Part shown: one piece after another, positions 1 to 36,953 of the stretch | Layout: each line of letters opens with the position of its first letter | Numbering within the stretch: position 1 is the first letter of the stretch | Origin: a virus | Length of the DNA stretch: 36,953 nt | Virus record (IMG/VR): IMGVR_UViG_3300001686_000002 | Coordinates: 1-36,953 of that record | Direction: 5' to 3' (one strand) | Translations under genes and position numbers: made by a program | The notes under the pieces: model-generated | The model's database searches: none | Seen by the model: the letters and a program-made list of their open reading frames with translations, nothing else | What the model was told of the DNA's origin: nothing

Positions 1-82
1 AAAAATGCTGGCTGACGCGAATGAATGAACGCCCATTTGCATCCGAGCGATCATTCACAAATCCGTTGATCTTACTGATAAT
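1..82. repeat. Terminal overlap, left copy (circular join)
   Basis: These 82 bases are identical to the last 82 bases of the window. An exact end overlap plus an open reading frame that continues through it indicates a circular or circularly permuted molecule. The overlap should be counted once. Confidence 0.95.
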
Positions 83-571
83 GAGTTCACCCATCGTGCC
101 GCCACCCTTCATCGGATCGCCATGCACGAAATAGATCAGCGTATTGTGACATCTTAACAGGGCTTGCTTCAGCCATTCGATATTGTCACCGCTGTTCGGA
201 TCGTATCCAATATCTCTCAAAATTTGAGAACCATCTCTGAAATAGATCGTATCGCTCTTTAGCAGCGTCACCTGCTTCTTTATCCAAAATAACAACTTGC
301 GATCTCTGCCATACGGTAAACCGTATTCTTCTGGCGCTGTCGCTCTTAACTCTAAGCAACCCGTACCGTTATTTCTGAAGTATCGGCTTACTGTTGGCTT
401 AGTGTTCGGTATCGAACATAGTACTAAGGGTTTTGCTACAAATCCCACCTTGCTTAAATCCTCCTTTGGCTTAACTTTCTTTTTATTATCAACGGCAACT
501 TGTTCATCACATTTTTTTTCGGTGCAAGCATTTTGCTGTGCACGTTCTGCTATAGCGTAAAAGTCAACCAT
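1..571 (-). CDS. rep: RepA-like replication initiator, N-terminal part (gene crosses the circular join)
   Basis: This is the 5' part of an initiator that should bind the iterons near 36.45-36.55 kb and open the origin. Translating upstream of position 58 keeps the frame open to a stop at 608-610. The gene continues across the circle join (82 equals 36953) and ends at 36579. The whole protein is about 287 residues. The motif EYGLPYGRDRKLLFWIKK (residues 82-99) matches the LPYG..R..L.W signature of the plasmid RepA_C family (PF04796). ATG 571 is chosen because AAGGGG lies 9 nt upstream; ATG 577 is also possible with a 3-nt spacer. Residues 30-40 are Lys-rich. Codons look like those of neighbouring genes. 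Family assignment rests on motif recognition, so a profile search would settle it. Confidence 0.85.
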   Translation of the reverse strand, partial: MVDFYAIAERAQQNACTEKKCDEQVAVDNKKKVKPKEDLSKVGFVAKPLVLCSIPNTKPTVSRYFRNNGTGCLELRATAPEEYGLPYGRDRKLLFWIKKQVTLLKSDTIYFRDGSQILRDIGYDPNSGDNIEWLKQALLRCHNTLIYFVHGDPMKGGGTMGELIISKINGFVNDRSDANGRSFIRVSQHF

Positions 572-577
572 CCCCAT

Positions 578-789
578 GATCCCCTTAACCGTTCTAGTTG
601 CTAGAATTTACTAAGATAAATTCTGATTCTACTACATTTTTACGTTGATGTGATAAGCGTGATGCGCTATAAGATTTTCAACGTAATCAAGTCACAAAGC
701 CTCCGGTATATCTACTGCCGGGGGCTTTCCCCTTTTAAGGGCTAAACAGTTTTAATCGCTTTTACTCTATTTTTCAAGTCACCCAATAC
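578..789. promoter_or_regulatory. rep upstream region with inverted repeats
   Basis: No gene is seen here. The stretch ahead of rep carries TTCTAG-TTG-CTAGAA (592-606), a 7-bp inverted repeat ACGTTGA/TCAACGT (642-648 and 678-684) and AGCG-TGATG-CGCT (656-668). Such dyads next to an initiator gene are often sites for Rep dimers or a copy-number repressor. A minus-strand TTGAAA lies around 674-680, but no convincing -10 is spaced from it, so I do not fix a promoter. Confidence 0.4.
697..727. terminator. Hairpin terminator between the early operon and rep
   Basis: A 10-bp stem (697-706 with 718-727, one G-T pair) has an 11-nt loop. On the plus side it is followed by a loose T-rich stretch and on the minus side by only three T. 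It probably separates the leftward early operon from the rep promoter. Confidence 0.5.
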
Positions 790-957
790 CTATTCAGTAT
801 CTTTCATGTCGTTATCTCCTTCTTCTTTCGCGTGGTAATAAACTACTTTCGTTGTGATGAACTTACCCTTTTCATCGTAACTAATTTCGATCGGCTTTTC
901 AGAGATCTCAATTTTCGAACGACATTTTATTGACAGCTCAACTAACACCTCAGACAT
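790..957 (-). CDS. Small hypothetical protein, 55 aa
   Basis: The gene starts MSEVLVELSIKCRS and ends in an acidic tail (EEGDNDMKDTE). It lies just downstream of a strong intrinsic terminator (973-1010), with the A/G-rich GGAATGCAAA ahead of the ATG as a weak ribosome site. Alternating charged and hydrophobic residues suggest a small beta-rich fold. I do not recognise a family. The regular codon structure and position at the end of the early operon support a real gene. Confidence 0.55.
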   Translation of the reverse strand: MSEVLVELSIKCRSKIEISEKPIEISYDEKGKFITTKVVYYHAKEEGDNDMKDTE

Positions 958-972
958 TTTGCATTCCTTTCT

Positions 973-1010
973 AAAAAAAAAGAGGCGATCCCCGAAGGGA
1001 ATTCCTCTTT
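973..1010 (-). terminator. Rho-independent terminator, minus strand
   Basis: The stem AAAGAGG/CCTCTTT (979-985 with 1004-1010) encloses an inner CCC-gaa-GGG stem. On the minus strand a run of nine T (973-981) follows. It lies after the gene ending at 1152 and ahead of the one starting at 957. Confidence 0.85.
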
Positions 1011-1123
1011 ATAAACTCCCATCGCTGGGCTACTCCCTTTTATTTCTACGGCCCAGTTCCATGGACTTTTTTTAATTGGTTTTGAAAATTGGGAATATAT
1101 AATGTTGATGCTGTTTTTGCAGT

Positions 1124-1139
1124 ATAATTTGCAAATTAT
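1124..1139. promoter_or_regulatory. Perfect 16-bp palindrome, possible operator
   Basis: ATAATTTGCAAATTAT is fully self-complementary. It sits 13 bases past the stop of the gene ending at 1152 and ahead of the terminator at 973-1010. It could be an operator or an mRNA 3' structure. No helical spacing to a clear promoter is visible. Confidence 0.4.
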
Positions 1140-1151
1140 TACAAGTTTAAT

Positions 1152-1394
1152 TTACTCTAACTCTCGCGGTCTCGTTCTAAATTCGTGAATCATTTTCATC
1201 CATTCCAGGTAGTAATCATCAGCAGACATCGTTCCGTTTTCAAGAGAATCAGTAACGAAATCAAATCGCGTTGACTGATATCTACCGACAATTCCCATCA
1301 CGACAACCGACGGTATGGGTGTGCCGTCCTTGTATTTGACGTTCAATTTTAAAACGATCTTCTCAATTGATTCAACGGCTTCGAAGAAAGTCAT
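1152..1394 (-). CDS. Hypothetical protein, 80 aa
   Basis: The gene begins MTFFEAVESIEKIVLKLN and contains SADDYYLEWMKMIHEF near its end. The start overlaps the stop of the preceding zinc-ribbon gene as ATGA, so it is translationally coupled at the end of the recE-recT operon. It is acidic with no membrane segment or recognisable catalytic motif. A 16-bp palindrome and an intrinsic terminator follow. The function is unknown. Confidence 0.7.
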   Translation of the reverse strand: MTFFEAVESIEKIVLKLNVKYKDGTPIPSVVVMGIVGRYQSTRFDFVTDSLENGTMSADDYYLEWMKMIHEFRTRPRELE

Positions 1395-1614: not shown

Positions 1615-2448
1615 TTACTTGACTATCTTCGGATCATGAATCGCAGGAACCCCTTCAATCCTATCATCGAAATCCTCGTGCTGAGGCATCACCTCAGCTT
1701 CTTCATAAGCTTCGAGCTTCACGGTCAACTCCTCCGCCTTCGTTTGTGACGGTGCCTTCGGCTTTTCGAACTGATAGTTCTCTTCATCGTCACGCTTGAG
1801 GAATTCAAGAACGTCAGTCGAGAGAGGCAAACGTTTCGCTAGTCGTTTCACAACAGTCTTGCGCCACATCTCACTTTCGAACGGCCCAGACCACGGCCCA
1901 CTATCTTTCGACTTAGAGACGTTCTTGACTGACATGATCTGAGACTTGCTCATCACTTCAATGTACGAGACGCCCTCTTTCGTGATCGCGATTGCAAACG
2001 CTCCAATCGGTTCACCACGCTCACCAAAACATTCCGGTTCGTGCTCAATCTGTTTCCCTGTGCGATCGGTCCACATCCTGAACTTATCGTTCTTGCACAC
2101 GATCTCAGAATCAATGCTGGCGATTTGACCGGAGTTTCTAATTTTCTTATAGATGCCTCCGATCATCGGCTGGTACTGAGCGATGGGACCTGTCTTGCTC
2201 TTGTAAATTAAAATCGCAGCTTCACGGCTATCAGGTAGAAGTCCGTCACCCGCACATTTCTTTGCAGCACTAAAGAGAGACGAACGGTTTGCGGTCAGAA
2301 GTGCTGAATTGCTTTCAATGCAAGTCATCATTACGGACAGGAATTTCTCGGGCGCAATATGCGGTGGGAGCGATGCCTTGAACCTCGGTAACATCGATGC
2401 AAATTCTCTGCGGACAACTTCAACTGGATTATTATTTTCGTTACTCAT
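1615..2448 (-). CDS. recT: RecT-family single-strand annealing protein
   Basis: The 277-aa protein should coat single-stranded DNA and anneal complementary strands, acting with the exonuclease encoded just upstream. The block SAAKKCAGDGLLPDSREAA (around residues 62-80), then YQPMIGGIYKKIRNSG, is the conserved core of RecT/Red-beta-like proteins (PF03837). The length is close to E. coli RecT (269 aa). The acidic C-terminal tail (residues about 225-277) is also typical. AAAGGGG sits about 6 nt ahead of ATG 2448, and the first codons overlap the end of recE by 8 nt, so the pair is translationally coupled. In phages such pairs make concatemers and promote recombination. Confidence 0.9.
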   Translation of the reverse strand: MSNENNNPVEVVRREFASMLPRFKASLPPHIAPEKFLSVMMTCIESNSALLTANRSSLFSAAKKCAGDGLLPDSREAAILIYKSKTGPIAQYQPMIGGIYKKIRNSGQIASIDSEIVCKNDKFRMWTDRTGKQIEHEPECFGERGEPIGAFAIAITKEGVSYIEVMSKSQIMSVKNVSKSKDSGPWSGPFESEMWRKTVVKRLAKRLPLSTDVLEFLKRDDEENYQFEKPKAPSQTKAEELTVKLEAYEEAEVMPQHEDFDDRIEGVPAIHDPKIVK

Positions 2449-3301
2449 GATTCACCCCTTTATTTAACGCCCACGGTGGTAGGCCAATCGGTTTCACACC
2501 CTGTTGATATCTTCCCCAGGAGCGCGTTGACAGAGACGTTTTCAGTCTTTCTAGTGCTATATAATAGTCTATTTCGCCTCGCTGTAACAGATCTTCGTCA
2601 GCAATATAAAGAGCAACATCGTATGGGGGTTTCTTCTCGACTGCGAGAAACAAACAGTTATCTACTTTCTTTCCGTCGATCGCAGCGATACCAGCGCAGT
2701 ACATTGACATTTGAAAATCATATCGTAAATCCCAGATCTTTCTGGAGAACGCATCCATACTACAGTCGGTGGTTGTTTTCACATCCAAGAAAGTCATCGA
2801 CTTGCTATCAAATAAATCAGGACGGATTTTGCAGAGAATTCCTGTACCTGGATCTCTATAAAATCCAGAAACCTCGGGCGTACCATGTTTCAAGATTCTG
2901 CTTGCGACACGATGCTGTGAAACAGATTCAATCATGCCGCTCAGATCTCGAAATTCAGTTTCAGTCAAAAACAGAGAACCAGGATGGGCATCCATGAACT
3001 CCTTCTTTGCAGCGACTGATCCGGTACCTGAAAATTTCGGCACCAGGATAAACTTCTTGGCGAACTCAGTCGGTTCAAGTATCGCCATGTGAAACGCGGT
3101 GCCCAGCTTGAACGCGGGAACATCTTCTTCTTTCTGATCTAAAAAATGGTGGGAATAGAATGAATAAGGTGACTTCAGAATCTTTCTCAATCCGGTCGAA
3201 CTCACGGCTGATTTATCGCCGTGATACTGATCTGACGTGATCGAAAGATTCCAGTTTGGCGTGAATTTCTCTCCAACAACGAGAGGTGTATCTTCTTGCA
3301 T
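2441..3301 (-). CDS. recE: RecE-like (exonuclease VIII type) PD-(D/E)XK exonuclease
   Basis: The 286-aa protein is predicted to resect double-strand ends 5' to 3' and hand single strands to RecT. It shows GTAFHMAILEP (His 71), RPDLF (Asp 162), FLDVKTT (Asp 173 and Lys 175) and Q197-x3-Y201 in QMSMY. This is the usual order of the RecE C-terminal nuclease and DUF3799 family. ATG 3301 is chosen because GGAG lies 5 nt upstream; the longer frame from GTG 3343 lacks a ribosome site and starts inside an inverted repeat. It is about the size of the RecE nuclease domain alone, without the long N-terminus of E. coli RecE. Confidence 0.87.
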   Translation of the reverse strand: MQEDTPLVVGEKFTPNWNLSITSDQYHGDKSAVSSTGLRKILKSPYSFYSHHFLDQKEEDVPAFKLGTAFHMAILEPTEFAKKFILVPKFSGTGSVAAKKEFMDAHPGSLFLTETEFRDLSGMIESVSQHRVASRILKHGTPEVSGFYRDPGTGILCKIRPDLFDSKSMTFLDVKTTTDCSMDAFSRKIWDLRYDFQMSMYCAGIAAIDGKKVDNCLFLAVEKKPPYDVALYIADEDLLQRGEIDYYIALERLKTSLSTRSWGRYQQGVKPIGLPPWALNKGVNHE

Positions 3302-3340
3302 TAAAGCTCCAACTGAACAAGGCAGCCCAGACTTAACAAA

Positions 3341-3421
3341 CACTAGCGACAGAATTCGCTAAGTCTTGGGCCATTCCTTGTGCAAAAGGGGTTTCTGATT
3401 TTTGATGTGACGTCGCTAGTG
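3341..3421. promoter_or_regulatory. recE upstream region with a 10-bp inverted repeat
   Basis: CACTAGCGAC (3341-3350) and GTCGCTAGTG (3412-3421) are perfect reverse complements 61 bases apart. They bracket the region in front of recE. Between them on the minus strand is a possible 13-codon peptide frame beginning MAQDLANSV. The arms could be paired operator sites or the base of an mRNA stem. Confidence 0.45.
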
Positions 3422-3847: not shown

Positions 3848-4627
3848 TCAACTCACTGCATTCACATTCTGTGCCGATTCCTTCTGTGCCTTTTCAATGG
3901 CTTCATAATGAGCGCGAACAATCTTAATCATCCGGTACAAGATCGCTGAAATATTTCGGATGTTCTCGGATTTCGATACCTTCTTAGCGGCTTTCTTGAA
4001 CTTATCGAATGCCGCGAGCTCCGAAACTAGAACGTTGTCACCTGTCTGGTCTTTGTCCATCAGGTCAAGCACCGTCTCGAACTCGGCTTTTTGATTCGGA
4101 AAGAAACAGATATTCAACATTTCAAAATCCATCGAAATAGAAAGGTCTTCAGTCTTAACTTGCCCGACACTGTAGTTCAGTTCATCCTGCGTTATGGCGG
4201 ATTCAATCTTCGACCGGATGTCGTCAATGCTGTCGTAAATCTCTTTCAACTTCGCTGAATCATCGGTTCCGTTAATCGCGTTGTGAGCTAACTGTTTTGC
4301 TTTCACGGAATTCGAATCAAGTGTTGATTCAAAAACCAGAACGAAAATGATCATCACACTCGCAGCTCGTGCCGCCCGAGTTCTGTGATGCCCAGAAATA
4401 ATTCCGAGCTGGCGATTGCCAGATTTATTCGTCTCCCAGGTACACAGAGGTAAACTCTCTAGGCGTTTGTCGTTCTTAATGTTGTTCACGAGAGACGTGA
4501 ACTTCGTATCGGACATTACCCTGGCATTGACGTCTTGCTCTCGGAGCACGTCAAGATGCACTTTCCAGAGTGACAACCCATTCTCCATGTCGTAAACTTT
4601 TTCAGCGTTGGTCGAGTTCTCATGCAT
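3848..4627 (-). CDS. ParB/Srx-fold protein, likely partner of the modification-like gene
   Basis: The 259-aa protein has the N-terminal ParB-like fold: a strand plus DVNARVMSD (residues 32-40), a helix SLVNNIKND, and the box-II motif ISGHHRTRAARAA (77-89), where the GxxR signature binds nucleotide or phosphate. The rest (about 110-259) is helical and lacks a recognisable ParB helix-turn-helix. There is no parA or parS-like array nearby, so classic partition is unlikely. ATG 4627 overlaps the stop of the upstream gene by 8 nt and has AGGGGAAG ahead of it. ParB-fold proteins occur in phage DNA-modification operons as nucleotide-using enzymes, which fits its coupling to the upstream gene. That role is inference. 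Confidence 0.72.
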   Translation of the reverse strand: MHENSTNAEKVYDMENGLSLWKVHLDVLREQDVNARVMSDTKFTSLVNNIKNDKRLESLPLCTWETNKSGNRQLGIISGHHRTRAARAASVMIIFVLVFESTLDSNSVKAKQLAHNAINGTDDSAKLKEIYDSIDDIRSKIESAITQDELNYSVGQVKTEDLSISMDFEMLNICFFPNQKAEFETVLDLMDKDQTGDNVLVSELAAFDKFKKAAKKVSKSENIRNISAILYRMIKIVRAHYEAIEKAQKESAQNVNAVS

Positions 4628-6044
4628 CTTCGTCTTCCCCTTCTTCATCGTCCTGGTTTTTTCTCAAGTCCTGGACATTGAACTCTTTTAGCCACAGGTC
4701 CAGCGTTTCCTTAAATGATCTTCTGTAAAAGTTTGTCCTGTACAAAAGCTTGTACATACCATTTGGTAACTTTTCTCGATTCTCAATCGTCAGCAGTCCA
4801 GTGTTCGATTTGAGTTTTCTGTATTTTGTCAGTCCAGTTGTTTTGATTCCTTTGATGTCGTAAATCCTGTTGATCTTCACTCGCTTTTCAACGAGACGCT
4901 TAAAGTCGTAACAGGTTAGTAGCATCATGAATAATTTGTGAACATTCGGGTGCTTGTCCAGAGGCTGATCAAATCCAAACACCTGAATGATGTCCGTGGA
5001 CTTCAATCGCAGTACGTCTGACAAAAATATCCCCGTGACACCAAAAGCCATCCCATCCAGCATAAAGAGGTAATAGATCTCTGCCTTGGTCGTCCCCATC
5101 TTGTGCGCCCAGAGATCGCGGTAATACAGAGCGTTCTCCGCTCGAATCATCGAAACGGTGATTTTCGTGTCCTGCGTGATTTCATAGCTCTTTGGCAAAA
5201 TCTCGATACCTAAACTCTTGACGTCTTTTCTCGACTTATACTGAATCTTGTAGGCGAGTGGGTGCTTTTCAAATAGTCGGGGATCAGTAACGCAGTAATA
5301 CTCAAACTTGCTTTTACCTGTCTCTTCGGCAAAAATGATATTCTTTGCAGAGATGGCCGGCCTTCTGTCACACGACCAGATCCATAGTTCTTTGTCCTTG
5401 AATTCTGTCGCGGTAAACCCATCGCTAAACTCTTTCGCTGAGTTGTATGATTCGTAATTGCTCTCGAAAATAATCTCGCCCATGTCTGAACTCTTACCCT
5501 TCGCTGGCGGGTGGACTACGGTTACTGTGCCAGGGCTGTCGCTGGCGATACACACTCTCAGGTCCTTGATCGAATAGTGAATGCCTCTGTACTTCTCCAC
5601 CTTGATTTTCAATTGCTTCACTATGTCTGCGATGATCTCTTCTTTGCTCTTCGTGAGATACTCGTAAACGAGCGCCTCATAGAACAGATCATGGTTGATG
5701 TCCAATCCCCGCATCAGCCAGATCAGGAACGCCACCTTCTCAAACTGTGTCTTATACTGGTCGTATTCCTTCTGCCAATCATAGGTCAGTCGGAAACCGA
5801 TCTCGTCTACGTTCTGATTTTGAATCAAGGCACCGAGCAAGGAACTCATCAGGCTTATGTCAGAAGTAAAGATGTCTCCTGGCTTGTAACCGGCCTCTAG
5901 AGCGACGTCAACAAGGGCAAAGGTGCCGACGCAAGGGATATGGATTTTTGGGTATTTTTCTCGGATTTCTTTAAGAAGTGAGACGTACAGTTTTTTCTGT
6001 GTGGATCTTGAGGCACCAATAAACACAGATTCGGATTTTTTCAT
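4620..6044 (-). CDS. Large two-part protein: degenerate methylase-like N-terminus and Mom/GNAT-like C-terminus
   Basis: The 474-aa protein begins MKKSESVFIGASRSTQ. Residues 32-75 (HIPCVGTFALVDVALEAGY, then FTSDISLMSSLLG) look like the SAM-binding start of D12-class adenine methylases. The usual DPPY motif is absent; VVHPPAKG (176-183) is the nearest match. The C-terminal half (about 290-460: AEIYYLFMLDGMAFGV, then GIKTTGLTKYRKLKSN and MYKLLYRTNFYRRSF) resembles GNAT/Mom-like phage antirestriction acyltransferases. The C-terminus is acidic. No ribosome site is visible; instead a 5-codon frame (6062-6048) ends in TAA directly abutting this ATG. It is coupled to the ParB-like gene. I am fairly sure it is one gene and unsure of its chemistry. 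Confidence 0.55.
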   Translation of the reverse strand: MKKSESVFIGASRSTQKKLYVSLLKEIREKYPKIHIPCVGTFALVDVALEAGYKPGDIFTSDISLMSSLLGALIQNQNVDEIGFRLTYDWQKEYDQYKTQFEKVAFLIWLMRGLDINHDLFYEALVYEYLTKSKEEIIADIVKQLKIKVEKYRGIHYSIKDLRVCIASDSPGTVTVVHPPAKGKSSDMGEIIFESNYESYNSAKEFSDGFTATEFKDKELWIWSCDRRPAISAKNIIFAEETGKSKFEYYCVTDPRLFEKHPLAYKIQYKSRKDVKSLGIEILPKSYEITQDTKITVSMIRAENALYYRDLWAHKMGTTKAEIYYLFMLDGMAFGVTGIFLSDVLRLKSTDIIQVFGFDQPLDKHPNVHKLFMMLLTCYDFKRLVEKRVKINRIYDIKGIKTTGLTKYRKLKSNTGLLTIENREKLPNGMYKLLYRTNFYRRSFKETLDLWLKEFNVQDLRKNQDDEEGEDEDA

Positions 6045-6067
6045 TTACGCTAAACGTAACATTTTTT

Positions 6068-6143
6068 TGGCTGCCCTGTCTTGGATTTTTACCAGGAATC
6101 TCTCACACTGAAGTGAGCGTTCTAAGCATTAAACTACAAGGCA
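6068..6143 (-). tRNA. tRNA-like element (irregular)
   Basis: Read on the minus strand it is 76 nt including an encoded CCA. There is a 7-bp acceptor (TGCCTTG/CAGGGCA), T8-A9, a D stem GTTT/GAAC and an anticodon stem CTCAC/GTGAG. The anticodon loop has only 6 nt (TTCAGT). The T loop is TAAAAAT instead of TTCRA, and the T stem has a mismatch. The cloverleaf is clear but degenerate, so the anticodon (CAG or TCA reading) is uncertain. It lies between DUF488 and the Mom-like gene and may be a decayed tRNA or an mRNA processing signal. Confidence 0.45.
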
Positions 6144-6150
6144 ACATTAC

Positions 6151-6519
6151 CTAGAGAAACGATTCTTGATCGTTACCCCATTCCATCGATGTAACAGAGA
6201 TGCCTTTAAAGCGCAACCAGTCAATTACATAATGGCGGTGACATCTGTCTCCAGGCTTTTCCCAACAGAGCAATATCTTCTCATTTACGATCATCGCAAT
6301 CTCTTCAGGATCAAACCTATCAAGCTGCTGAAAGTAAATGTTTCTCCATTCCTCTGGTTCATAGTCCTTGGCGTTTCGTACCATGTGCCAAGGCGGAGCA
6401 AGGCGAACATCCTTTGCTCCTTCGTAAAATGAGGGAACTCCTTGCGAAATTGCCAAACACTTTTCGAGTGGCAAGTTCTTCAGGTTTCCGTAGTAACTCG
6501 TATAAATCATGATGCTCAT
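6151..6519 (-). CDS. DUF488-like protein
   Basis: The 122-aa protein starts MSIMIYTSYYGNLK, with an AAGAAGAGAAGAAG purine run as ribosome site. The C-terminal block LLCWEKPGDRCHRHYVIDWL is the hallmark of DUF488: L.C.E.....CHR...a..L, with Cys and His residues thought to form an active or metal site. DUF488 proteins are common in phages and bacteria and their biochemical role is not settled. It belongs to the early small-gene operon, upstream of a tRNA-like element. Confidence 0.8.
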   Translation of the reverse strand: MSIMIYTSYYGNLKNLPLEKCLAISQGVPSFYEGAKDVRLAPPWHMVRNAKDYEPEEWRNIYFQQLDRFDPEEIAMIVNEKILLCWEKPGDRCHRHYVIDWLRFKGISVTSMEWGNDQESFL

Positions 6520-6765: not shown

Positions 6766-6969
6766 TTACTCCGTAAGTTCTTGTGCAAAATCAGATAATT
6801 CTTTCGGATCATTGAACTTATTCGACGGTCCCATCCATATAGAATTTCCTTCTCTTGGATCACAGTACTCAACATCATCGAGAAAACTCTTTGCTTCCTC
6901 GGCTGATTCAGCATCGACAATCCATTCCTGCCTTACTGAAAAACATCGTGATACAATGAACGTTTTCAT
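6766..6969 (-). CDS. Hypothetical protein, 67 aa
   Basis: From ATG 6969 it reads [20 protein letters not shown], with GAGGG 8 nt upstream and an ATGA overlap with the DUF2958 stop; both favour this start over the longer frame from 7014. The pattern [23 protein letters not shown] resembles small phage proteins that follow a beta-beta-alpha scheme. I cannot name the family or function. Confidence 0.65.
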
Positions 6970-7280
6970 TGCGTTTTCCCTCTCACTAACGAATAAGGTT
7001 TCTGTATCCACCATAGGTCACGCTCCATCGGCAACCCATTCACCTCGGTCTCTTCAAGTTCTTCAAGTGAGAAATATCCCCACTCCTTTTCAAAACCATG
7101 TACACATCCAAAAAATGTCTTGTCCTTTGGATGGAATTCGCTGGCATACCACGTCCAGTTACTCATCGGATGAAAGTATTTAGCAACTATGATCGGATCA
7201 TCTCCTTTCTGGCGACCCAAACATTTAAAACGTTCTTCAAGTTCTTTAGTCAATAGCTTGTGACGACGTTTCGTATTCAC
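6966..7280 (-). CDS. DUF2958 family protein
   Basis: The 104-aa protein shows the full family pattern: LTKELEERF, then [43 protein letters not shown] and [13 protein letters not shown]2958 proteins are common on plasmids, integrative elements and phages and have no assigned activity. The start is GTG 7280 with AAAGGAAAA just upstream. It is the first gene of the leftward operon that follows the 7.3-7.6 kb gap. Confidence 0.85.
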
Positions 7281-7485
7281 GAATTTTCCTTTCTTATTTA
7301 GGGTTTATTTAGTGGTTTACCGTTCCACAGAGTTTCTATTTTTGCAAGTTATTTGTTCTGGAATGAGATGTAAAGTGGTTGTAAAGGTTGGGTTTTTTGA
7401 CGTTTTGAGAGACCTGAGGATGCCCGAGAATCGATTTTGAATGAGTGGTTGATAGGTGAGTATAGGGGTAAATGGATGGGTGAGG
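7281..7485. promoter_or_regulatory. Non-coding gap with possible leftward promoter
   Basis: I see no gene in the gap from 7281 to 7600 apart from the tRNA-like element. On the minus strand CTTTACATCT (7361-7370) also occurs upstream of the 9039 gene, with a TA..(C)T hexamer 17 nt downstream in each case, so it may be a -35 element. Two copies of TTATTTAG (7293-7300 and 7304-7311) sit just ahead of the DUF2958 gene. The promoter call is weak. Confidence 0.3.
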
Positions 7486-7561
7486 TGGAGCTACCGGAAT
7501 TGAACCAGATCTGAATCAACTAGCAAGGTTGAGTTCCGCTTTACCGTTAAGCTATAGCTCC
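7486..7561 (-). tRNA. tRNA-like element (irregular anticodon arm)
   Basis: On the minus strand the acceptor GGAGCTA/TAGCTCC is perfect (9 bp if extended). It is followed by TA and a D arm GCTT-AACGGTA-AAGC. The T arm has the canonical TTCAATT loop but a 4-bp stem (CTGG/CCGG). The best anticodon stem is TCAAC/GTTGA with loop CTTGCTA, giving UGC (alanine) but leaving five extra bases before it. CCA is not encoded. It may be a decayed or unusually folded phage tRNA. Confidence 0.55.
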
Positions 7562-9583: not shown

Positions 9584-9940
9584 ATGGACGCAAGCTTCTG
9601 GTTTGGCATTGCAGGAGTTATCACGGCCTTAGCCACTCTTATTACTGCGGTGCTTTCTCACAAGAAACTCATGCGCGAACTCGCCTTGAAAGAATCAGAT
9701 GCAGAGATGAAAGATTCTCAGCTGATTCGACAGCAACTCAGAGAAGAACTTCAGATTGCTCGTGAGATGATCGGGACACTGAATATAAAACTTGATCACA
9801 TGAATCTAGTTATCGACGACTGGCAAACGAAATATTTCGAGCTCAAGCAAGAGCACGTCGTGACTATGGTTAAGTTTAAAGAGGTCGAGAAAGCTCTCGC
9901 AGGAATTCGAACTGATCTTCAGGTGAAGTTTTTAAATTAA
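9584..9940 (+). CDS. Membrane-anchored coiled-coil protein, spanin-like topology
   Basis: The 118-aa protein has one transmembrane segment (FWFGIAGVITALATLITAV, residues 5-23). A long charged coiled coil follows (about 27-112, EELQIAREMIGTLNIKLDHM). That is the layout of inner-membrane spanin subunits and of some accessory or exclusion proteins. No clear ribosome site precedes ATG 9584, and it follows the nuclease gene by 16 bases. Its 3' end overlaps the receiver gene tail to tail by 9 bases. The lysis role is inference from topology. Confidence 0.6.
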   Translation: MDASFWFGIAGVITALATLITAVLSHKKLMRELALKESDAEMKDSQLIRQQLREELQIAREMIGTLNIKLDHMNLVIDDWQTKYFELKQEHVVTMVKFKEVEKALAGIRTDLQVKFLN

Positions 9941-11021: not shown

Positions 11022-11025
11022 CGCA

Positions 11026-11745: not shown

Positions 11746-11758
11746 TTTGTTTCCAAAT

Positions 11759-12556: not shown

Positions 12557-12585
12557 ATTCCCGTCTCCCCTTTAAAAAATTGTTT

Positions 12586-12741: not shown

Positions 12742-12753
12742 TACAAATCCCCT

Positions 12754-24171: not shown

Positions 24172-24172
24172 T

Positions 24173-27092: not shown

Positions 27093-27698
27093 TTACGCAA
27101 GCATAGATTCGTACTTAATACGGAGTTCAGAATTCGCTGAAAGTACAGTTTGAACAGCATCAGAAAAACTCTTACTCTTGCCCTCTGAAAGTCGAACCTT
27201 TGCGAGTTTGAGAACTTCTTCTTGTGCAGATTGAATATCAGGACGTGCAGAAGACCCCGCTGGGCTTCCACCGTGACCATGATTGTTTGAGTTCATTGGC
27301 TTATGAAGTTCCGAGAACTTAATCATATCGCCATCCATGAACGGTTGTCTCTGCGCCTCGACAGCTTTACCTTCTGAAAGCAGCTTGTCGAAAGATACTT
27401 TCTTTTCAGCCATTTTTGCATCGCCAGCAGACTTGCCGACTTGTTCTTTGAGAGCATCGTGAGATTTTTGCAATGCATCGTGTTTACTTGCAAGATCAGC
27501 AACTTCTTTTTTATTTGCTGCGCCTTCAGCCATATCGTCTTCTCCGTTTTTAGGTGCGTCGCCTTCTCCGCCTTCGTTTGCAGCATCCTTACCTTGTGCG
27601 TCTTGGATCTGTTTTACGAGTGCGGCCATTTGATTTACAAGATCAGTAACCTTGTCGTCGAGTTCATCAAGAGTGATGCTCTTTCCTGTTTTGCTCAT
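27093..27698 (-). CDS. Nested scaffold protein from an internal start, 201 aa
   Basis: ATG 27698 in the same frame is preceded by AGGAAGAGGG with a 6-nt gap, an unusually good ribosome site in the middle of a gene. The product begins MSKTGKSITLDELDDKVTDL and is a Glu/Lys-rich coiled coil with a Gly/Asn/His linker and a basic C-terminus. This parallels the I/Z pair of phage Mu and C/Nu3 of lambda, where the scaffold is made separately. Confidence 0.7.
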   Translation of the reverse strand: MSKTGKSITLDELDDKVTDLVNQMAALVKQIQDAQGKDAANEGGEGDAPKNGEDDMAEGAANKKEVADLASKHDALQKSHDALKEQVGKSAGDAKMAEKKVSFDKLLSEGKAVEAQRQPFMDGDMIKFSELHKPMNSNNHGHGGSPAGSSARPDIQSAQEEVLKLAKVRLSEGKSKSFSDAVQTVLSANSELRIKYESMLA

Positions 27699-28193
27699 TT
27701 GTTTCCCTCTTCCTTCGGATAGTTCAACCGCTGGTTCCATTCTCTTGATCACCGGACGGTTCGTTAGACCAGCACCCAAGAGTGTCGGCCCATACTCTTT
27801 TAAAGTTTCATTATCGATGTAATTAAAAATAAAATCAGCGGAGACGTATCGGTATTCTTTCTCGGAAAGTACTTGGCTACCTTTCGCGGTCCAGTCAATC
27901 TCAGCCCACAATTCGGTGTCACCGTTTTGGAGCTCAACGCTTTTAAACCAGCCCGCAGCGATACTTTCGCTTTCGTGAGCGTAGTCAATCGCGAGGTCGA
28001 TCCCACGTACCTTGTCTGAGAAGTTTTTGACCATTGAACGTAGATCATCAGCAGTAATATCCACTTCACCTAATTTGGGGTGATGGAACGTGCCGATTCT
28101 CATTACCTGGATAGACTTCTGAACTCCTCCATCTTTGTCGCTTAAGCGAATTGGAGCAGCTCTGAGAGGTGCTTTTTTGAACTGTTTCTGCAT
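27093..28193 (-). CDS. Mu I-like prohead protease with C-terminal scaffold
   Basis: The N-terminal half contains FHHPKLGEVDITADDLRSM, GIDLAIDYAHESESIAAGWF and the catalytic-type EKEYRYVSADF, the Mu-like protease pattern (PF10123) with His in DYAH and Ser in YVSADF. From about residue 166 the protein becomes an acidic coiled coil, which is the scaffold. ATG 28193 has only a short GGGA; TTG 28220 is an alternative with AAGAG 8 nt upstream. A second start inside the gene makes the scaffold alone. Confidence 0.85.
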   Translation of the reverse strand: MQKQFKKAPLRAAPIRLSDKDGGVQKSIQVMRIGTFHHPKLGEVDITADDLRSMVKNFSDKVRGIDLAIDYAHESESIAAGWFKSVELQNGDTELWAEIDWTAKGSQVLSEKEYRYVSADFIFNYIDNETLKEYGPTLLGAGLTNRPVIKRMEPAVELSEGRGKQMSKTGKSITLDELDDKVTDLVNQMAALVKQIQDAQGKDAANEGGEGDAPKNGEDDMAEGAANKKEVADLASKHDALQKSHDALKEQVGKSAGDAKMAEKKVSFDKLLSEGKAVEAQRQPFMDGDMIKFSELHKPMNSNNHGHGGSPAGSSARPDIQSAQEEVLKLAKVRLSEGKSKSFSDAVQTVLSANSELRIKYESMLA

Positions 28194-28233
28194 AGTCCCA
28201 TGCTGACGCCTGGGATGCAATTAGTCAACTCTT

Positions 28234-29100
28234 TTAGCTGATGCTACACCCACATCTCAGTTTTTTTCTCTCGGAGAACTCAACCTGATCATCGAGTGAA
28301 GAATCAGAAGGTTTGAGCTTTTCAATATCTCGATCACCTAAATCGCCCTTCAAAATAGGCACCAGATACGATTTGCAGCGCCAGTGGAGCGGAGGATAGT
28401 ATCGGTCAGCTTCAGGATCATCTTGATCGAAAATCGTACCGTCAAGGTCTTGACAAACCTCCGTGACAGGATCTCCGTTCGTGAATTGGAGTGCATCCAA
28501 TTGATTGGACACCTCCTCATCCATGAAGAACGCGTTTCTCGCGGAATTAATAATGGTCGAAGCAGCAAGGTCAGCTCCCAAATCAACAGAAGTTCCAGTC
28601 AGCCATCCAAGAGCACTATCTTGAAGGTCTTTCTGGATGAGATCGTTCGAATCGGTTTCATCGACTGCGTTCGTGTACGCAAACTCGATCACTTTCTGGA
28701 GATCGCCCACCTGTTTCCCGACAAGCAGATTCATTTGGTTCTGTATTTTCCTTTGCAGGTCGGGAGGCAGAAGCTCGAACTCACCAAACATTACCGAATC
28801 AGTATATTCGTGGAGCTTCACATTCTTTGCCTTGGGGATTTCTTTCCTCACCTGGTCGATTGCATCGGTCGCGATCACGGCTAGACCTGTTTTTACCAAA
28901 CTTTTATAGTCTGATATTCCCGACAACTGAACTCCTTTCAGGGCGGTCAGTTTCTTTGAATCGGTCAGCCTTCTGCACTTGCCCATGATCTGTTTGATCA
29001 TCGCGTTAGCCATCAATGTCAAGTCGTCTCGCATAACGTCTGCGAGGGCCTTCGCCGCCTCCACCATGTGCTTGTCGATCCTGACTTTCTTCTTTTTCAT
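28234..29100 (-). CDS. Mu F-like minor head protein
   Basis: ATG 29100 has AGGGG 8 nt upstream. The 288-aa protein is helical at the N-terminus and ends in the diagnostic C-terminal block TEVCQDLDGTIFDQDDPEA followed by YYPPLHWRCKSYLVPI. The C-x-LDG and PPLHW.C spacing identify the Mu F / SPP1 gp7-like family (PF04233). These proteins join the head and are sometimes injected. It follows the portal, as usual. The frame is open up to TTG 29118. Confidence 0.87.
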   Translation of the reverse strand: MKKKKVRIDKHMVEAAKALADVMRDDLTLMANAMIKQIMGKCRRLTDSKKLTALKGVQLSGISDYKSLVKTGLAVIATDAIDQVRKEIPKAKNVKLHEYTDSVMFGEFELLPPDLQRKIQNQMNLLVGKQVGDLQKVIEFAYTNAVDETDSNDLIQKDLQDSALGWLTGTSVDLGADLAASTIINSARNAFFMDEEVSNQLDALQFTNGDPVTEVCQDLDGTIFDQDDPEADRYYPPLHWRCKSYLVPILKGDLGDRDIEKLKPSDSSLDDQVEFSERKKLRCGCSIS

Positions 29101-29251
29101 TCTCGTTCCCCTTCGCAATTCCTAACGTAACGACACCTTGCAGAATGATTGCGGTACTTGCACACCAAGGGCAGGTTTCTGCACCGACATCACCTATAAA
29201 TTTCTTCGAACAACGCTGACAAAAGAACTCACCCTGTTTCCAGACCCCCAT
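29006..29251 (-). CDS. Small zinc-ribbon protein between portal and F-like genes
   Basis: ATG 29251 has AAAGGAG with 6-nt spacing, which argues for a real gene. The protein starts MGVWKQGEFFCQRCSKKFIG and has two CxxC pairs (CQRC, CPWC). After about residue 47 it overlaps the start of the F-like gene for 95 bases and becomes Gly/Arg-rich, so the functional part may end near there. It recalls Mu Com, the zinc protein that controls mom translation, but the resemblance is limited to size and zinc pattern. Confidence 0.55.
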   Translation of the reverse strand: MGVWKQGEFFCQRCSKKFIGDVGAETCPWCASTAIILQGVVTLGIAKGNENEKEESQDRQAHGGGGEGPRRRYARRLDIDG

Positions 29252-30767
29252 GTGATTCTCCTTTGATTTTCTGTCTCCTTGCCTCAGCAAGTCGGATCCT
29301 CTCGGCAAACAAACTCGTCGAAGTTTGGCCTGGACCATTTGCTGGTATGTCCACGCCCTTGGCCTGAACGAAACGTCTGCCAACTTCGGATTTAATAGGC
29401 AACTTATATCGTTTTCTAATGCTGTCTTCCAATGGATCATCTGGAACAACTACCTGTGCATCGACAAAGTACTTCATCACCTCAGCAAATTCTTTACCTG
29501 CCTTGTCACTCACTCCTGAATGAGCAAGTTTTGGATACGCATCTCGTGGCCCACGGTTCATTTGAATGAGGCGAGGGATCACCATGCGATTGAATTTTGA
29601 CTCTATTTCATTCGCGATGTGCTCAATCCCCGAGACAAAAAACTCTTGGAAAGTACTGCTCATTGCGAAACTCCCGACAGAATTCATTCCGAGTTCTAAG
29701 AAGTTCGCGAGGAACGCTTTCACCATTCTTTTATCTTCAGAATCGATCGAAGTTTCTACCTTTGATGGATCATAAGAATTATTATTTAAACTAATCTTCC
29801 ACCCTGCTGGGAACGTCAAATAGGCGGATTGATGAGTAGTGTAATCTTGCAAGGAATCTATCAGATTTTTGTACTGATCGCTGTTCTCTTTGCCAGCTGG
29901 GATTTCAGCCATCGGCGTCGGGATCGCGTACTTCTCGATGCCCATCGCGTTCAATTTCATGTACGTGTCTTTTCTCAACCAACATCCGTAACAGGATCGC
30001 AAGGCAGAAACACCCTCATAGTTCGAACCCTCCTGGTCGAGACTGAACAGAATCAAGAATTCTGCGGGGATATCTACTGTTTTGTACAAGTCTCCAAAAC
30101 TATACTGAGTGACCGATGCAAGTCTTCCCGTTGCGTAGTCAAGGTTAAATCTTTCGATAGTCCTTTGACTGCGGAAACCGAGCGACTGAATGGCGTTGTA
30201 TGTTCCAAATTTTGGATGGTCGAATACTACCTTGTCAGTGATTTCGAAAGCACTGAACCCGAAATCAATGAACGTCAGGATCTCCCCGAGTTGCTGCGTC
30301 CAGTCCATATCGAGATCATGGAATAGGATCTGCTCGATTAACTCAGCGTCAAGTTTCGCATCCTCAGAATCATCTGCGGGTTGAACCTCCCACGTCGCAC
30401 TCTTGATCGGATTTTTCACGGCCTTCAGACACATCTTAATCTGGTAGTCAGATCGTCTCATCTCATCGTAAAGGTCTGCTCGTTTTCTCGGAGAACGTAA
30501 CTCCGACAAATACTCTTCAGCAGGATAACCGTAGTACGAAATGCTGCCATAAGAACCGATTGAACTCGTGTGAGGATTGCCTCTGCTTGTTCTCGTGGAT
30601 GGGATAATTCCGCTCAAAGGCGACTGTCCTGGTATCGGTGCTGTCACCTGCGTCGGTGTCGCAGAAGGATTAGGGATTTGCAGCGGAGGTAACGATACCT
30701 GCCTGTTTTCAAACTGACCTAATAGAATTCTACTAGCGATCCTCAACAACGGATTTTTCGTTACCAT
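29229..30767 (-). CDS. Portal protein, Mu gp29-like (DUF935)
   Basis: The 512-aa protein has a Pro-rich N-terminus. Its core YDEMRRSDYQIKMCLKAVKN, SATWEVQPADDSEDAK and LTFIDFGFSAFEIT fits the DUF935 portal family (PF06074). The length fits Mu gp29 (about 512 aa). The start overlaps the TerL stop by 7 bases. It should form the dodecameric DNA port at one capsid vertex. Confidence 0.85.
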   Translation of the reverse strand: MVTKNPLLRIASRILLGQFENRQVSLPPLQIPNPSATPTQVTAPIPGQSPLSGIIPSTRTSRGNPHTSSIGSYGSISYYGYPAEEYLSELRSPRKRADLYDEMRRSDYQIKMCLKAVKNPIKSATWEVQPADDSEDAKLDAELIEQILFHDLDMDWTQQLGEILTFIDFGFSAFEITDKVVFDHPKFGTYNAIQSLGFRSQRTIERFNLDYATGRLASVTQYSFGDLYKTVDIPAEFLILFSLDQEGSNYEGVSALRSCYGCWLRKDTYMKLNAMGIEKYAIPTPMAEIPAGKENSDQYKNLIDSLQDYTTHQSAYLTFPAGWKISLNNNSYDPSKVETSIDSEDKRMVKAFLANFLELGMNSVGSFAMSSTFQEFFVSGIEHIANEIESKFNRMVIPRLIQMNRGPRDAYPKLAHSGVSDKAGKEFAEVMKYFVDAQVVVPDDPLEDSIRKRYKLPIKSEVGRRFVQAKGVDIPANGPGQTSTSLFAERIRLAEARRQKIKGESHGGLETG

Positions 30768-32347
30768 GCCTTTGTATTTCTCCTGTACGGAACGTTCGTG
30801 GAGGATGGTCTCTTTGCCATTCTACTCGTAAATTCACCCACGTTAAAGGCATCGTATCGCGCATAGTTCGCAAGTGCCAGAGAATCACTGCTGTCTGGAC
30901 TAGATCTCCCAGTTCTCGCTTTGTACTCGTCTTTCGATTCGATCAACCATCGTCCTTGTTTATCAAACCTGTATTGTATAGTCGGCATTTCCTCAAGATA
31001 AATGTCCTCATTCATCAGGGCGAGATCGGATTTCAAATCATTCGAGAGTTCAATAAAGATTCTAGACTTGAGGTTGACATATTTCTGAGCTTCAGCATCA
31101 TCTTTCTCTCCAGCAGCAGCTCCGAAATGGACCTCTCTTACCTCAATATACCGGGGAAAATCGTTCGTATCTTGTAATGAACGAAGTTGGTCAACTACTC
31201 CACCTCCCACCCCTGTCGCATCAACGGCAATGTGGACATCCTTTGACTTTTCATCCTTAAGAATTCGAACAACCTCTCCGGTCGTCTCCGTTGTATCTCT
31301 GCGCGAGAACGTTTTTTTGAGCGTTTGTTGCTCACCATGAAATCGCGTGATCACTGTTTTGTCAGTACCGAAGCGAGCGACATCAACTCCGATCGACACT
31401 CGAGAATTTTCATCGTAGGTTTCCGTTCGGTAAATAGCCTTCTGCACCATCGACATAGGAAAGAGTGTGTATTCTCCCTCTTCAGGGAACTCTCCCAAGG
31501 CTTTCGAGAGCACCAAGGGATGATCTAGGCCAAGGCGAAGGGCCATTCTCATTACCCATCGAACAGTCAAAAGATTCAGGTCAACTACTGTGAACGCACC
31601 GAGTGCGACTTCTTGATCGGCTTGACTGAGATTTTGAATGTGCTCGAGCTCGGATCTCAAATGCTCTTTCGTTCTCAACCCATTTGCCGCGAAGTTCGGG
31701 CTGTCGAAGCAATTCAAATAAATCTTGTGGTACGAGGGATCAGAGAAACATTTATAGAACTCGCAGTCTCTTGTCGTCGGGTTTCCGATGCCCAAAAATC
31801 GTACGCGAGCAGAAGTCATCAACCCTTCCATCTGCACCCAGATGGGTTTCTGAATGCCTGTCGCCTCATCGAAAATCACGAGGATATAGTCACCATGAAA
31901 GCCTTGGAACGAACTTGCCGAACCTTGCTCTTCACCTGATCCGCTGCCGGGACTGGCGGTGTAACCAATCGCAAACCAATCATCAGCGATCCTCCATCCA
32001 GTTTGCATCATCGTACCGCCCAATGGATACTTAGCTTTTTCATACCCTTTTCTAATCTCAGACCAAAGGAGCATCTTGACTTGCTTGAAAGTCGGTGCGG
32101 TCGTGATCACCTTTGCTCCAGGGAATGAGGACGTGAACCAGAGTACTATTTTAGCTGCTGTCCAGGTTTTTCCTAGGTCGTGAGCGGAGGCAACAACAGT
32201 CCGTTCATGTTTTGCTACTGATTCTGCTACCTTCTGCTGAAATGGTAGCATTGTCGATACGCCTTGGACCATTTTGATATGGTATAGAGCATCTTTTCTG
32301 CATTTTTCTGCAAGGCTATATTCGGTTAAGTTTTGCGTGTTCTCCAA
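30761..32347 (-). CDS. terL: Terminase large subunit
   Basis: The 528-aa protein has a Walker A-like VVASAHDLGKTWTAAK (residues 51-66), Walker B ILVIFDEAT (155-163) and a nuclease core with IGVDVARFGTDKT (Asp 321 and Asp 328) and HIAVDATGVGGG (Asp 375). A later SSPDSSDSLALA could supply another acidic residue. It packages DNA using ATP and cuts concatemers. The start overlaps the HNH gene by 32 bases. The packaging mode (headful or cos) is not readable from sequence alone. Confidence 0.92.
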   Translation of the reverse strand: MENTQNLTEYSLAEKCRKDALYHIKMVQGVSTMLPFQQKVAESVAKHERTVVASAHDLGKTWTAAKIVLWFTSSFPGAKVITTAPTFKQVKMLLWSEIRKGYEKAKYPLGGTMMQTGWRIADDWFAIGYTASPGSGSGEEQGSASSFQGFHGDYILVIFDEATGIQKPIWVQMEGLMTSARVRFLGIGNPTTRDCEFYKCFSDPSYHKIYLNCFDSPNFAANGLRTKEHLRSELEHIQNLSQADQEVALGAFTVVDLNLLTVRWVMRMALRLGLDHPLVLSKALGEFPEEGEYTLFPMSMVQKAIYRTETYDENSRVSIGVDVARFGTDKTVITRFHGEQQTLKKTFSRRDTTETTGEVVRILKDEKSKDVHIAVDATGVGGGVVDQLRSLQDTNDFPRYIEVREVHFGAAAGEKDDAEAQKYVNLKSRIFIELSNDLKSDLALMNEDIYLEEMPTIQYRFDKQGRWLIESKDEYKARTGRSSPDSSDSLALANYARYDAFNVGEFTSRMAKRPSSTNVPYRRNTKAW

Positions 32348-32792
32348 AATATTCCCTAGCAGCGTTATTATAGGCTACAGCTGCGTCAACTTCTTTTTCG
32401 AAAAACCCTAGATGGATCTGTTTTCTTTTTACAGCAATGTATGCTCGCCATTTTTTTGTGTTGGCGTGTTTTGATACGCCCTTGAATTTCGACCTTCCTT
32501 TTTTTGCTCTGGAGTTATAGCAGTTCTGCGTTTGAGTGCAGATTCTAAGGTTTTCTTTTCTGTTGTCGAGCGAATTTCCGTTCACGTGGTCAACAACGTA
32601 TCCTTCAGGGGGGCTTGCAATCACATTGTGCATTCGAACCAAGGTAGGGTTTTTTCTACCTCCACCAGAGTAGCTGACCGCATAGAATTTTTTCCCATTT
32701 GATTCCTTAGCACACCACTTGTACTTGGATATTTTTTTAAAATCCTCATCGTCAATTACAGCTACAAGTCGTTGAGTGAGAGGTATTTCCAT
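32316..32792 (-). CDS. HNH homing endonuclease with AP2-like DNA-binding domain
   Basis: The 158-aa protein has the HNH motif at MHNVI, VVDHVNGNSLDNRKENL (residues 54-83), then an AP2-like domain (FKGVSKHANTKKWRAYI, LGFFEKEVDAAVAYNNAA). This is the standard mobile HNH-AP2 nuclease of phages. It lies between TerS and TerL, a favourite insertion point, and overlaps TerL by 32 bases, so it is free-standing rather than in an intron. Confidence 0.92.
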   Translation of the reverse strand: MEIPLTQRLVAVIDDEDFKKISKYKWCAKESNGKKFYAVSYSGGGRKNPTLVRMHNVIASPPEGYVVDHVNGNSLDNRKENLRICTQTQNCYNSRAKKGRSKFKGVSKHANTKKWRAYIAVKRKQIHLGFFEKEVDAAVAYNNAAREYFGEHAKLNRI

Positions 32793-32842: not shown

Positions 32843-33349
32843 TTACTCTTCTTCTTTCTTGGATTCTTCGGCAGCTTTAATAAACTCTACGAACGTCAGA
32901 GGCCCACCGTCTTTGCCTGTCACTTCATTCTTCTGAGTGTATCCCCAGCGTTTCGGATGTCGTCGTTCAAGTCTCCAGGCGAGTGCTCTCCAATCCCGTT
33001 TCACTTCAGCTCGAAGCACTTCACCGGACTGTGAGAATACGGCTGGCATCCCATGTCCGGCAGCTTCAATGCCCAGTAAATCATTATCTTCAGCCTCGGC
33101 TTCTGCGATTTCTACTGCCTTGCAAAAGTTGACAAAAATATCACCTTCTCCACGCGATCCAGCCTTCAGCCATCGGTATCCTGTTGAGGGATTAATTCCA
33201 GCGGCAGAGCAAGCAGTCTCGAAATAATTACCGCGCTTGAGTTTTTTGACGATGATTTCTTGAACTTCAGGAGTGAGTTCAACAGGTCTCCCCATCTTTT
33301 CTTTGGGGGGGTATTTCGGCATTTTTCTTTTATCTTCTTCGTTTTCCAT
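32843..33349 (-). CDS. terS: Terminase small subunit
   Basis: The 168-aa protein has a basic N-terminus, then GRPVELTPEVQEIIVKKLKR and TACSAAGINPSTGYRWLKAG, a helix-turn-helix of phage TerS proteins. The central helices and a C-terminal ERRHPKRWGYTQKNEV fit small terminases that bind pac or cos. The start is uncertain: 33349 and 33322 both have only A-rich upstream sequence. Confidence 0.8.
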   Translation of the reverse strand: MENEEDKRKMPKYPPKEKMGRPVELTPEVQEIIVKKLKRGNYFETACSAAGINPSTGYRWLKAGSRGEGDIFVNFCKAVEIAEAEAEDNDLLGIEAAGHGMPAVFSQSGEVLRAEVKRDWRALAWRLERRHPKRWGYTQKNEVTGKDGGPLTFVEFIKAAEESKKEEE

Positions 33350-33365
33350 TATTACATCATGCCAC

Positions 33366-33401
33366 AAAAAAAGAGGCCACCGGAAGAATACGGCAGCCTC
33401 T
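33366..33401 (-). terminator. Intrinsic terminator upstream of terS
   Basis: AGAGGC-CA-CCG pairs with CGG-CA-GCCTCT (33372-33401), with seven T on the minus strand (33366-33372). It ends the small-gene operon just before the terminase genes, leaving almost no room for a promoter. Confidence 0.85.
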
Positions 33402-35776: not shown

Positions 35777-36083
35777 CCGACGTCCCTTTCCCTAGATTGC
35801 AATCCCTGCACAAAATTTGTAGGTTTCGTAAGTCTAGCGCAAGCGCGGGATATTTTGAACGCGGTTTTATATGGTCAACGTGCAGCTCAACTTGAGTTCT
35901 CCGGCATAAATGGCATTGCCTCCCATACGCTTTAAACGCCCTGTAGCGCAGGTTTTGCCATTGCCGGGTGTGGTAGAATGATTTCTTCTTTGCGGGCCGC
36001 TCCTGGGGGGTGTGGTGCATCCAGAATGCAAACCCTAGATACATCCAGCAGACGCACAATTGAATTACGAGGTCGTGGGACAC
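35742..36083 (-). CDS. HNH endonuclease next to the origin
   Basis: The protein is up to 113 aa. The HNH core is CHLCRRTQVELHVDHIKPRS followed by LRNLQILCRDCNLGKG, the standard C-x2-C, DHI, N, C-x2-C layout. An N-terminal hydrophobic stretch (LCVCWMYLGFAFWM) looks membrane-like and is unusual; a start at ATG 36020 would drop it. Phage HNH proteins beside terminase genes assist packaging, but this one lies near the replication origin and may be a free nuclease. Confidence 0.8.
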   Translation of the reverse strand: MSHDLVIQLCVCWMYLGFAFWMHHTPQERPAKKKSFYHTRQWQNLRYRAFKAYGRQCHLCRRTQVELHVDHIKPRSKYPALALDLRNLQILCRDCNLGKGTSDATRWSSRRRF

Positions 36084-36086
36084 TAT

Positions 36087-36302
36087 TCAACTTCGGTTCC
36101 ACTTCTTCGCTAACTCGATTTCAGATTCAGTAAACAGCAGTTCATCGATGTGCTCTGAATCGTCAGACCGCCAGCAAGTGTACCACCATTGATTTGCCAT
36201 GAATTCTTTCTTGACGACAAACGCGATTTTCCCTTTGTACGGACCTATCAAAGGCCGCACCGCATCTGTGAGTTTAAAAATATTTCTTGGTATCAAATCC
36301 AT
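36087..36302 (-). CDS. Hypothetical protein, 71 aa
   Basis: From ATG 36302 (GGAAA just upstream) it reads MDLIPRNIFKLTDAVRPLIG, then KIAFVVKKEFMANQWWYTCW and an acidic helical end. The pattern suggests a small beta-barrel like those in SH3-type phage proteins. It is the first gene beside the origin on this side. No family is recognised. Confidence 0.6.
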   Translation of the reverse strand: MDLIPRNIFKLTDAVRPLIGPYKGKIAFVVKKEFMANQWWYTCWRSDDSEHIDELLFTESEIELAKKWNRS

Positions 36303-36360
36303 TTTCCAATTTCCTCTTTTTCTTTCCATTTTTCGAAAATTTCAAACTCTCCCCTGGCAC

Positions 36361-36404
36361 ACCTCTAGGAACTTCTAGGTACCTCTAGGAAAAAACCTCT
36401 AGGA
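36361..36404. repeat. CTCTAGGA-type repeats beside the iterons
   Basis: Copies lie at 36363-36370, 36373-36380 (TTCTAGGT variant), 36383-36390 and 36397-36404, at 10, 10 and 14 base steps. All contain the palindromic CTAG. Roughly one helical turn apart, they suit cooperative protein binding near the origin. Confidence 0.8.
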
Positions 36405-36450
36405 GGCGTCCGGGTAGCCGCCACTGTAGCCGCTAGACAGTCACGTTGCT

Positions 36451-36551
36451 ACTAGATACGACGGTCACTTATACTAGATACGACGGTAAAACCTACTAGA
36501 TACGACGGTAAAACCTACTAGATACGACGGAATAGCTACTAGATACGACGG
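36451..36551. repeat. oriV: Five iterons of the replication origin
   Basis: The exact 14-mer ACTAGATACGACGG occurs at 36451, 36473, 36495, 36517 and 36538. The steps are 22, 22, 22 and 21 bp, close to two helical turns. Direct repeats at this period beside a RepA gene are the classical iteron origin of theta plasmids. Confidence 0.93.
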
Positions 36552-36565
36552 TCTTCAAAATGCAA

Positions 36566-36574
36566 TGTGGATAA
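36566..36574. promoter_or_regulatory. Consensus DnaA box
   Basis: TGTGGATAA is the exact reverse complement of the DnaA consensus TTATCCACA. It lies 15 bases from the last iteron and 5 bases from the rep stop. Confidence 0.85.
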
Positions 36575-36578
36575 CTTT

Positions 36579-36953
36579 TCATGATCTCTTTCGAGGTGGT
36601 ATATAAATGAGGTTATCCTCAATTTTGCACCCAGAATGAAACCCAATATCATTCAATTTTTTGAGAGACTTCTTGAGGTCTTGCTTCATTTTATAGTTGG
36701 GGATCTTATCACCGATGGCAAAATGGCTTCTGAGTTCTTCGAATCTAAACACCACTGTGTCTTTCGCTCTGTCTTGTCGGTCAACCAGATATACGTAAAG
36801 GTCCATCGCGGCATAGTCTCTTCCGAGTTTTTCGATGATCTCAAGATCAACCTTGACATACAGCATATCAAAAAAATGCTGGCTGACGCGAATGAATGAA
36901 CGCCCATTTGCATCCGAGCGATCATTCACAAATCCGTTGATCTTACTGATAAT
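36579..36953 (-). CDS. rep: RepA-like replication initiator, C-terminal part
   Basis: This is the 3' part of the initiator gene; bases 36872-36953 duplicate 1-82. The motif AAMDLYVYLVDRQ, then FRFEELRSHFAIGD and a Lys-rich helix (YKMKQDLKKSLKKL) fit the second winged-helix half of RepA_C proteins, where lDlY.WL, W..L...FG and nFK...L are the usual landmarks. The stop is 5 bases from a consensus DnaA box and under 30 bases from the last iteron, which is the usual rep-oriV arrangement. A start at the in-frame GTG 36929 would give only a fragment; it arises because the linear window cuts the gene. Confidence 0.85.
   Translation of the reverse strand: MISKINGFVNDRSDANGRSFIRVSQHFFDMLYVKVDLEIIEKLGRDYAAMDLYVYLVDRQDRAKDTVVFRFEELRSHFAIGDKIPNYKMKQDLKKSLKKLNDIGFHSGCKIEDNLIYIPPRKRS
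36872..36953. repeat. Terminal overlap, right copy (circular join)
   Basis: This is the second copy of the 82-base end overlap. The size is compatible with an assembler's k-mer overlap on a circular contig, but the sequence alone cannot exclude a short genuine direct terminal repeat. Confidence 0.95.

Follow-up and report, generated by a model that had tools for sequence, protein, structure and literature searches.

In mycobacteriophages such as Miko, RepA and ParABS replace the integrase, and the prophages have been proven to be extrachromosomal (PMC7157519). Circular phage-plasmids have been reported from glacier viromes (PMC4490671), and a 2026 survey found 4,395 phage-plasmid-like genomes in IMG/VR (PMC13221032). 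Plasmid unnamed5 of Piscirickettsia salmonis NVI 5692 (NZ_CP039224), circular and 42.7 kb long, carries rep with an array of ~4.7 22-bp repeats after it, as well as TerS/TerL, a Mu-type portal, protease, cement and tape measure proteins, ParA and ParB, and contractile-tail baseplate genes; the stretch that was read has no annotated integrase. Portal relatives also occur on Pigmentibacter and Promineifilum plasmids. P. aeruginosa pBH6::BH9 was considered as a precedent and rejected, since there a Mu-like phage has inserted itself into a plasmid (PMC6435834).

The window analysed here is the whole of IMG/VR entry IMGVR_UViG_3300001686_000002 (36,953 bp), which we regard as an uncultivated tailed phage whose ~37-kb genome is essentially complete. 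It resembles unnamed5 in its rep and repeat array, its packaging and head genes and its want of an integrase, but differs from it in the ParA–ParB pair and contractile-tail baseplate of that plasmid; the two Rep proteins share no tblastn similarity and only the portal matched (26%). A Mu-type head joined to an iteron replicon, which the first-pass annotation held to be unusual, thus has precedents in PLSDB, unnamed5 among them. Like the Miko-type phages, the window is tailed and has a RepA replicon instead of an integrase, whereas those phages carry ParABS and, according to their authors, no iterons (PMC7157519). Mu and B3-like phages share the portal, F, I, Gp36 and head protein families with the window, which differs from them in having no transposition genes and a capsid ~23–27% identical to those of phage records. 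Finally, the Rep proteins of Pelobacter propionicus pPRO2 and Rickettsiales bacterium Ac37b plasmid 1 are ~25% identical to the window Rep with shared motifs, and their genes are likewise followed by direct repeats or 22-bp iterons, but no virion genes were noted near rep, and in Ac37b ParA lies beside it.

Nearly all genes of the window lie on the minus strand, and the first and last 82 bp of the record are identical, a repeat that falls inside rep. The features are as follows.

1–577, minus: N-terminal part of rep (residues 1 to ~192), an ORF across the joint with plasmid RepA homology, resuming at 36871 once circularised
1615–2448, minus: RecT single-strand annealing protein (Pfam RecT 1.5e-32, phrog_148)
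2441–3343, minus: RecE-like exonuclease, DUF3799 PDDEXK (phrog_412 1.8e-72)
3848–4648, minus: ParB-like protein, overlapping the next gene (phrog_7405, weaker ParB matches)
4620–6044, minus: phage DAM-like and GNAT-like protein, probably for DNA modification (domain match)
7484–7561, minus: tRNA-Ala (TGC)
10581–11195, minus: NlpC/P60 protein, candidate lysis or tail hydrolase (profile match)
18637–20898, minus: tape measure protein (profile match)
24173–24619, minus: Mu Gp36-like head–tail adaptor (profile match)
25687–26622, minus: major head protein (phrog_1005 9.6e-51)
26677–27051, minus: capsid cement/decoration protein (profile match)
27093–28220, minus: Mu I-type prohead protease (Pfam 1.3e-25)
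28234–29118, minus: Mu F-type minor head protein (Pfam 1.6e-7)
29229–30767, minus: Mu-type portal, Portal_Mu (Pfam 6.1e-41)
30761–32347, minus: terminase large subunit (phrog_2 7.6e-37)
32316–32792, minus: HNH/AP2 endonuclease, between TerS and TerL (profile match)
32843–33367, minus: terminase small subunit (phrog_4102 1.9e-26)
36361–36404, plus: four 10-bp repeats, ACCTCTAGGA, adjoining the iterons
36444–36552, plus: five iterons of 22 bp (core TACTAGATACGACGG), 26 bp beyond the stop codon of rep
36566–36574, minus: perfect DnaA box (TTATCCACA; reads TGTGGATAA at 36566), between the iterons and rep
36579–36953, minus: C-terminal part of rep with its stop codon; the last 82 bp duplicate bases 1–82

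Joining the record ends yields a single intact 289-aa Rep ORF through the joint. Its own match to Pfam RepA_C is weak (E 0.004, below the cut-off); tblastn against plasmids matched 63 records, with RepA of pPRO2 as the best (6e-14), and an alignment with six plasmid RepA proteins revealed conserved blocks such as GLPYG. A profile built from the RepA alignment matched both halves of rep (3.9e-66 and 8.3e-43), values that show only that both halves are Rep, as the window protein is included in that profile. Judged from these comparisons, Rep is a distant but clearly related member of the plasmid RepA proteins, and the RepA-type initiator named at first reading stands. Structure prediction was poor (pLDDT 43), and sequence searches found no relative of solved structure. 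The RepA profile had no match in 21 other related viral records, leaving Rep in one of 22, and single-protein scans of viral contigs with Rep, TerL and RecE found no close relative of the same gene, one distant TerL excepted. One Rep alignment was too divergent for scanning, and a two-sequence alignment matched only Stammera symbiont replicons among genomes and nothing among viruses, so Rep offers no clue to the host.

The 15-bp iteron core occurs in five exact copies and in seven near-matches in total, while shuffled sequences averaged 0.5 near-matches and none reached seven. Only one further DnaA box of the searched form is present in the window; the annotated iterons and box were both confirmed. 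The adjoining ACCTCTAGGA repeats, with no exact copy elsewhere in the window, may be a site for a regulator, for partition or for packaging. Repeats also follow repA in Ac37b (5.2 copies of 22 bp), pPRO2 (2.6 copies of 33 bp) and a Xanthomonas plasmid (two of 23 bp), so the position of the iterons 3′ of rep is not odd in the RepA family; no array was called after the Pseudomonas syringae and Pseudonocardia genes. With its Rep homology, iterons and DnaA box, the window has the makings of an iteron theta replicon of RepA type. A lambda-type phage origin likewise uses an initiator and iterons, and iterons alone are therefore no proof of plasmid life.

The virion and packaging gene set looks complete by profile matching, as is asked of a phage-plasmid: TerS, TerL, the Mu-like portal, the F and I proteins and the tape measure were all supported. 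Some other structural genes could be assigned to no family. The RecE/RecT pair was also upheld (1615–3343). The lysis genes of the first-pass annotation were supported only in part, by one NlpC/P60 protein that may act in lysis, the holin and spanin candidates having been picked by eye only. At the distal tail end, a long gene at 13703–15949 lies in a trinucleotide outlier (z ~3, over 13501–16000) and is possibly a recently exchanged receptor-binding gene.

A capsid search of IMG/VR returned 20 loci at 42–68% identity. Six records (G007, G008, G004, G005, G010 and G020; 34–37.5 kb) were read whole, and fragments also belong to the lineage. By BLAST, the head, neck and tail genes at ~10 to 32 kb are common to these relatives, TerL is shared with some of them only, and rep, RecT, RecE and the other early genes of the window occur in none. 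The relatives, which like the window have no integrase, differ from it in their early genes and have no Rep or iterons of its type; visible in their sequences instead are DNA polymerase A in G005 and G010, a P4-type primase in G005 and, just under the cut-off, a Lin1244_N replisome protein in G020, Phage_rep_O being undetected. Initiators for G007 and G008 were guessed by eye and given no weight. In a tree of three structural proteins, the window falls within the lineage and pairs with its nearest relative, G007, at 0.999 support. Capsid identity to deposited phages is about 27% or less across 50,697 phage records; the lineage is real and has no described member among the phage records searched. 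The size and gene set of the window agree with those of the complete relatives.

Several further genes of the window and its relatives deserve mention. A stand-alone response-regulator receiver domain (9932–10411, minus; Pfam 3.3e-22), unusual for a phage of this size, retains by eye the phospho-acceptor Asp, Thr and Lys. A DUF2958 protein (6966–7280, minus; 8.4e-12) was found in none of 14 control genomes. A 90-aa gene without assigned function (10312–10584, minus) is common to most well-covered relatives, and a small ribbon-helix-helix-like gene with a weak NikA-like match (21748–22011, plus), on the strand opposite to the tail genes, has homologues in seven related records and is a candidate lineage-wide regulator. 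Near the tail or lysis region of four relatives we noted by eye O-antigen ligase/polymerase-like membrane proteins (G005 433–1422, G007 23331–24347, G008 12840–13997 and G020 12233–13372); in their place the window carries a glycosyltransferase-like gene (11026–11790). In G005 (19385–22102, 905 aa) and G006 (3958–6429, 823 aa) one ORF spans both portal and F-type minor head protein, which suggests a portal–F fusion in those two relatives; the window encodes portal and F separately.

When the main genes and 77 further ORFs of at least 60 aa were scanned with Pfam, families of integrase, transposase, repressor, ParA and toxin–antitoxin were all missing, and no MuA/MuB transposase accompanied the Mu-type head proteins. 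Direct searches with PF00589, PF13614 and PF00239, positive in most or all control genomes, came back empty for the window and 12 relatives, and ParA, integrase and resolvase are absent from this set. The missing integrase, transposase and Mu transposition genes of the original description were thus corroborated. Having no integrase characterises the lineage and carries no specific information on whether the window lives as a plasmid.

We think it rather probable that the window is a tailed phage from an uncultivated lineage with Mu-type heads, and that a plasmid RepA/iteron replicon has taken the place of its replication module, probably for lytic use. The replicon looks like a swapped-in module because the window nests in a lineage whose 21 other records have no such Rep; counting against this explanation, iterons after the gene are clear in some RepA relatives and not in all. 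We infer that Rep would bind the five iterons that closely follow the rep gene and, together with host DnaA bound to the adjoining box, open the origin for theta replication and recruit host helicase and polymerase; no polymerase, primase or helicase is recognisable in the window. RecE/RecT may then help to convert replication products to concatemers, which terminase would package into a prohead of the Mu-type portal, F and I proteins. Lytic replication is most likely driven by the RepA/iteron origin, a more economical view given that Rep is the only initiator recognised, although another replication protein could be hidden among the many early genes without a known family.

That rep and the virion genes come from two molecules merged in assembly is very improbable: the record is a metagenomic contig, but the rep ORF is intact over the joint with both halves matching RepA, the composition around rep is inside the range of the genome, and one main coding direction prevails, with phage genes flanking rep on both sides. 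Replicon and virion genes, we conclude, really do share one molecule. The 82-bp end repeat, across which the record assembles to a circle, fits a circular molecule and equally fits permuted virion DNA or concatemers, and end repeats of 123–127 bp also occur in relatives without Rep. We give as little credence to a defective or satellite element borrowing helper-phage functions, for which the structural genes of unassigned family might speak, since its size and gene set are those of the complete 34–37.5-kb relatives and it carries TerS, TerL and a full head–tail module.

A temperate phage-plasmid, in which the RepA/iteron origin keeps a low-copy circle in lysogens and unrecognised genes provide partition and repression, is possible but on the present evidence unlikely. 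The plasmid-type Rep, iterons, DnaA box and absent integration genes would suit it, as would the P. salmonis plasmid uniting rep, ParAB and a Mu-type portal, the known phages that swap integrase for RepA and ParABS (PMC7157519), and the ParB-like gene of the window itself. That gene, however, overlaps the DAM/GNAT gene, and in G004 a ParB-like domain precedes a methyltransferase-like part (by eye), so a role in DNA modification is more likely than one in partition. ParA, repressor and toxin–antitoxin families were likewise missing from the Pfam-scanned ORFs of at least 60 aa, as set out above, and a stable plasmid prophage is on that account unproven; partition or addiction genes could be present in unrecognised form, and to our knowledge such systems are not universal in phage-plasmids. 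Nor did the relatives show lysogeny genes, and with the patterns used no capsid relative was found in 84,980 species genomes.

The first-pass annotation had gone on to suggest an undescribed group of phage-plasmids. Its undescribed status held for the lineage, given the low capsid identity, but the group did not, Rep being confined to a single record; a lineage of phage-plasmids is contradicted by the want of ParA and integrase in the window and 12 relatives and by the other replication genes of those relatives. It is doubtful, too, that the lineage is moving to plasmid life, with one captured RepA/iteron origin used for lytic growth and also, in the absence of ParA, for a plasmid prophage; if so, its other members would have neither the origin nor the plasmid prophage.

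That related head–tail modules occur both beside a plasmid origin and in its absence offers a natural comparison, in which one may ask whether gain of a RepA replicon alone suffices to make a phage-plasmid out of a phage. There is a warning here for metagenomes, too: a plasmid lifestyle should not be read from a Rep match combined with the lack of an integrase. Similar combinations are already on record, and the window is a useful example of a replication-engine swap between phages and plasmids.
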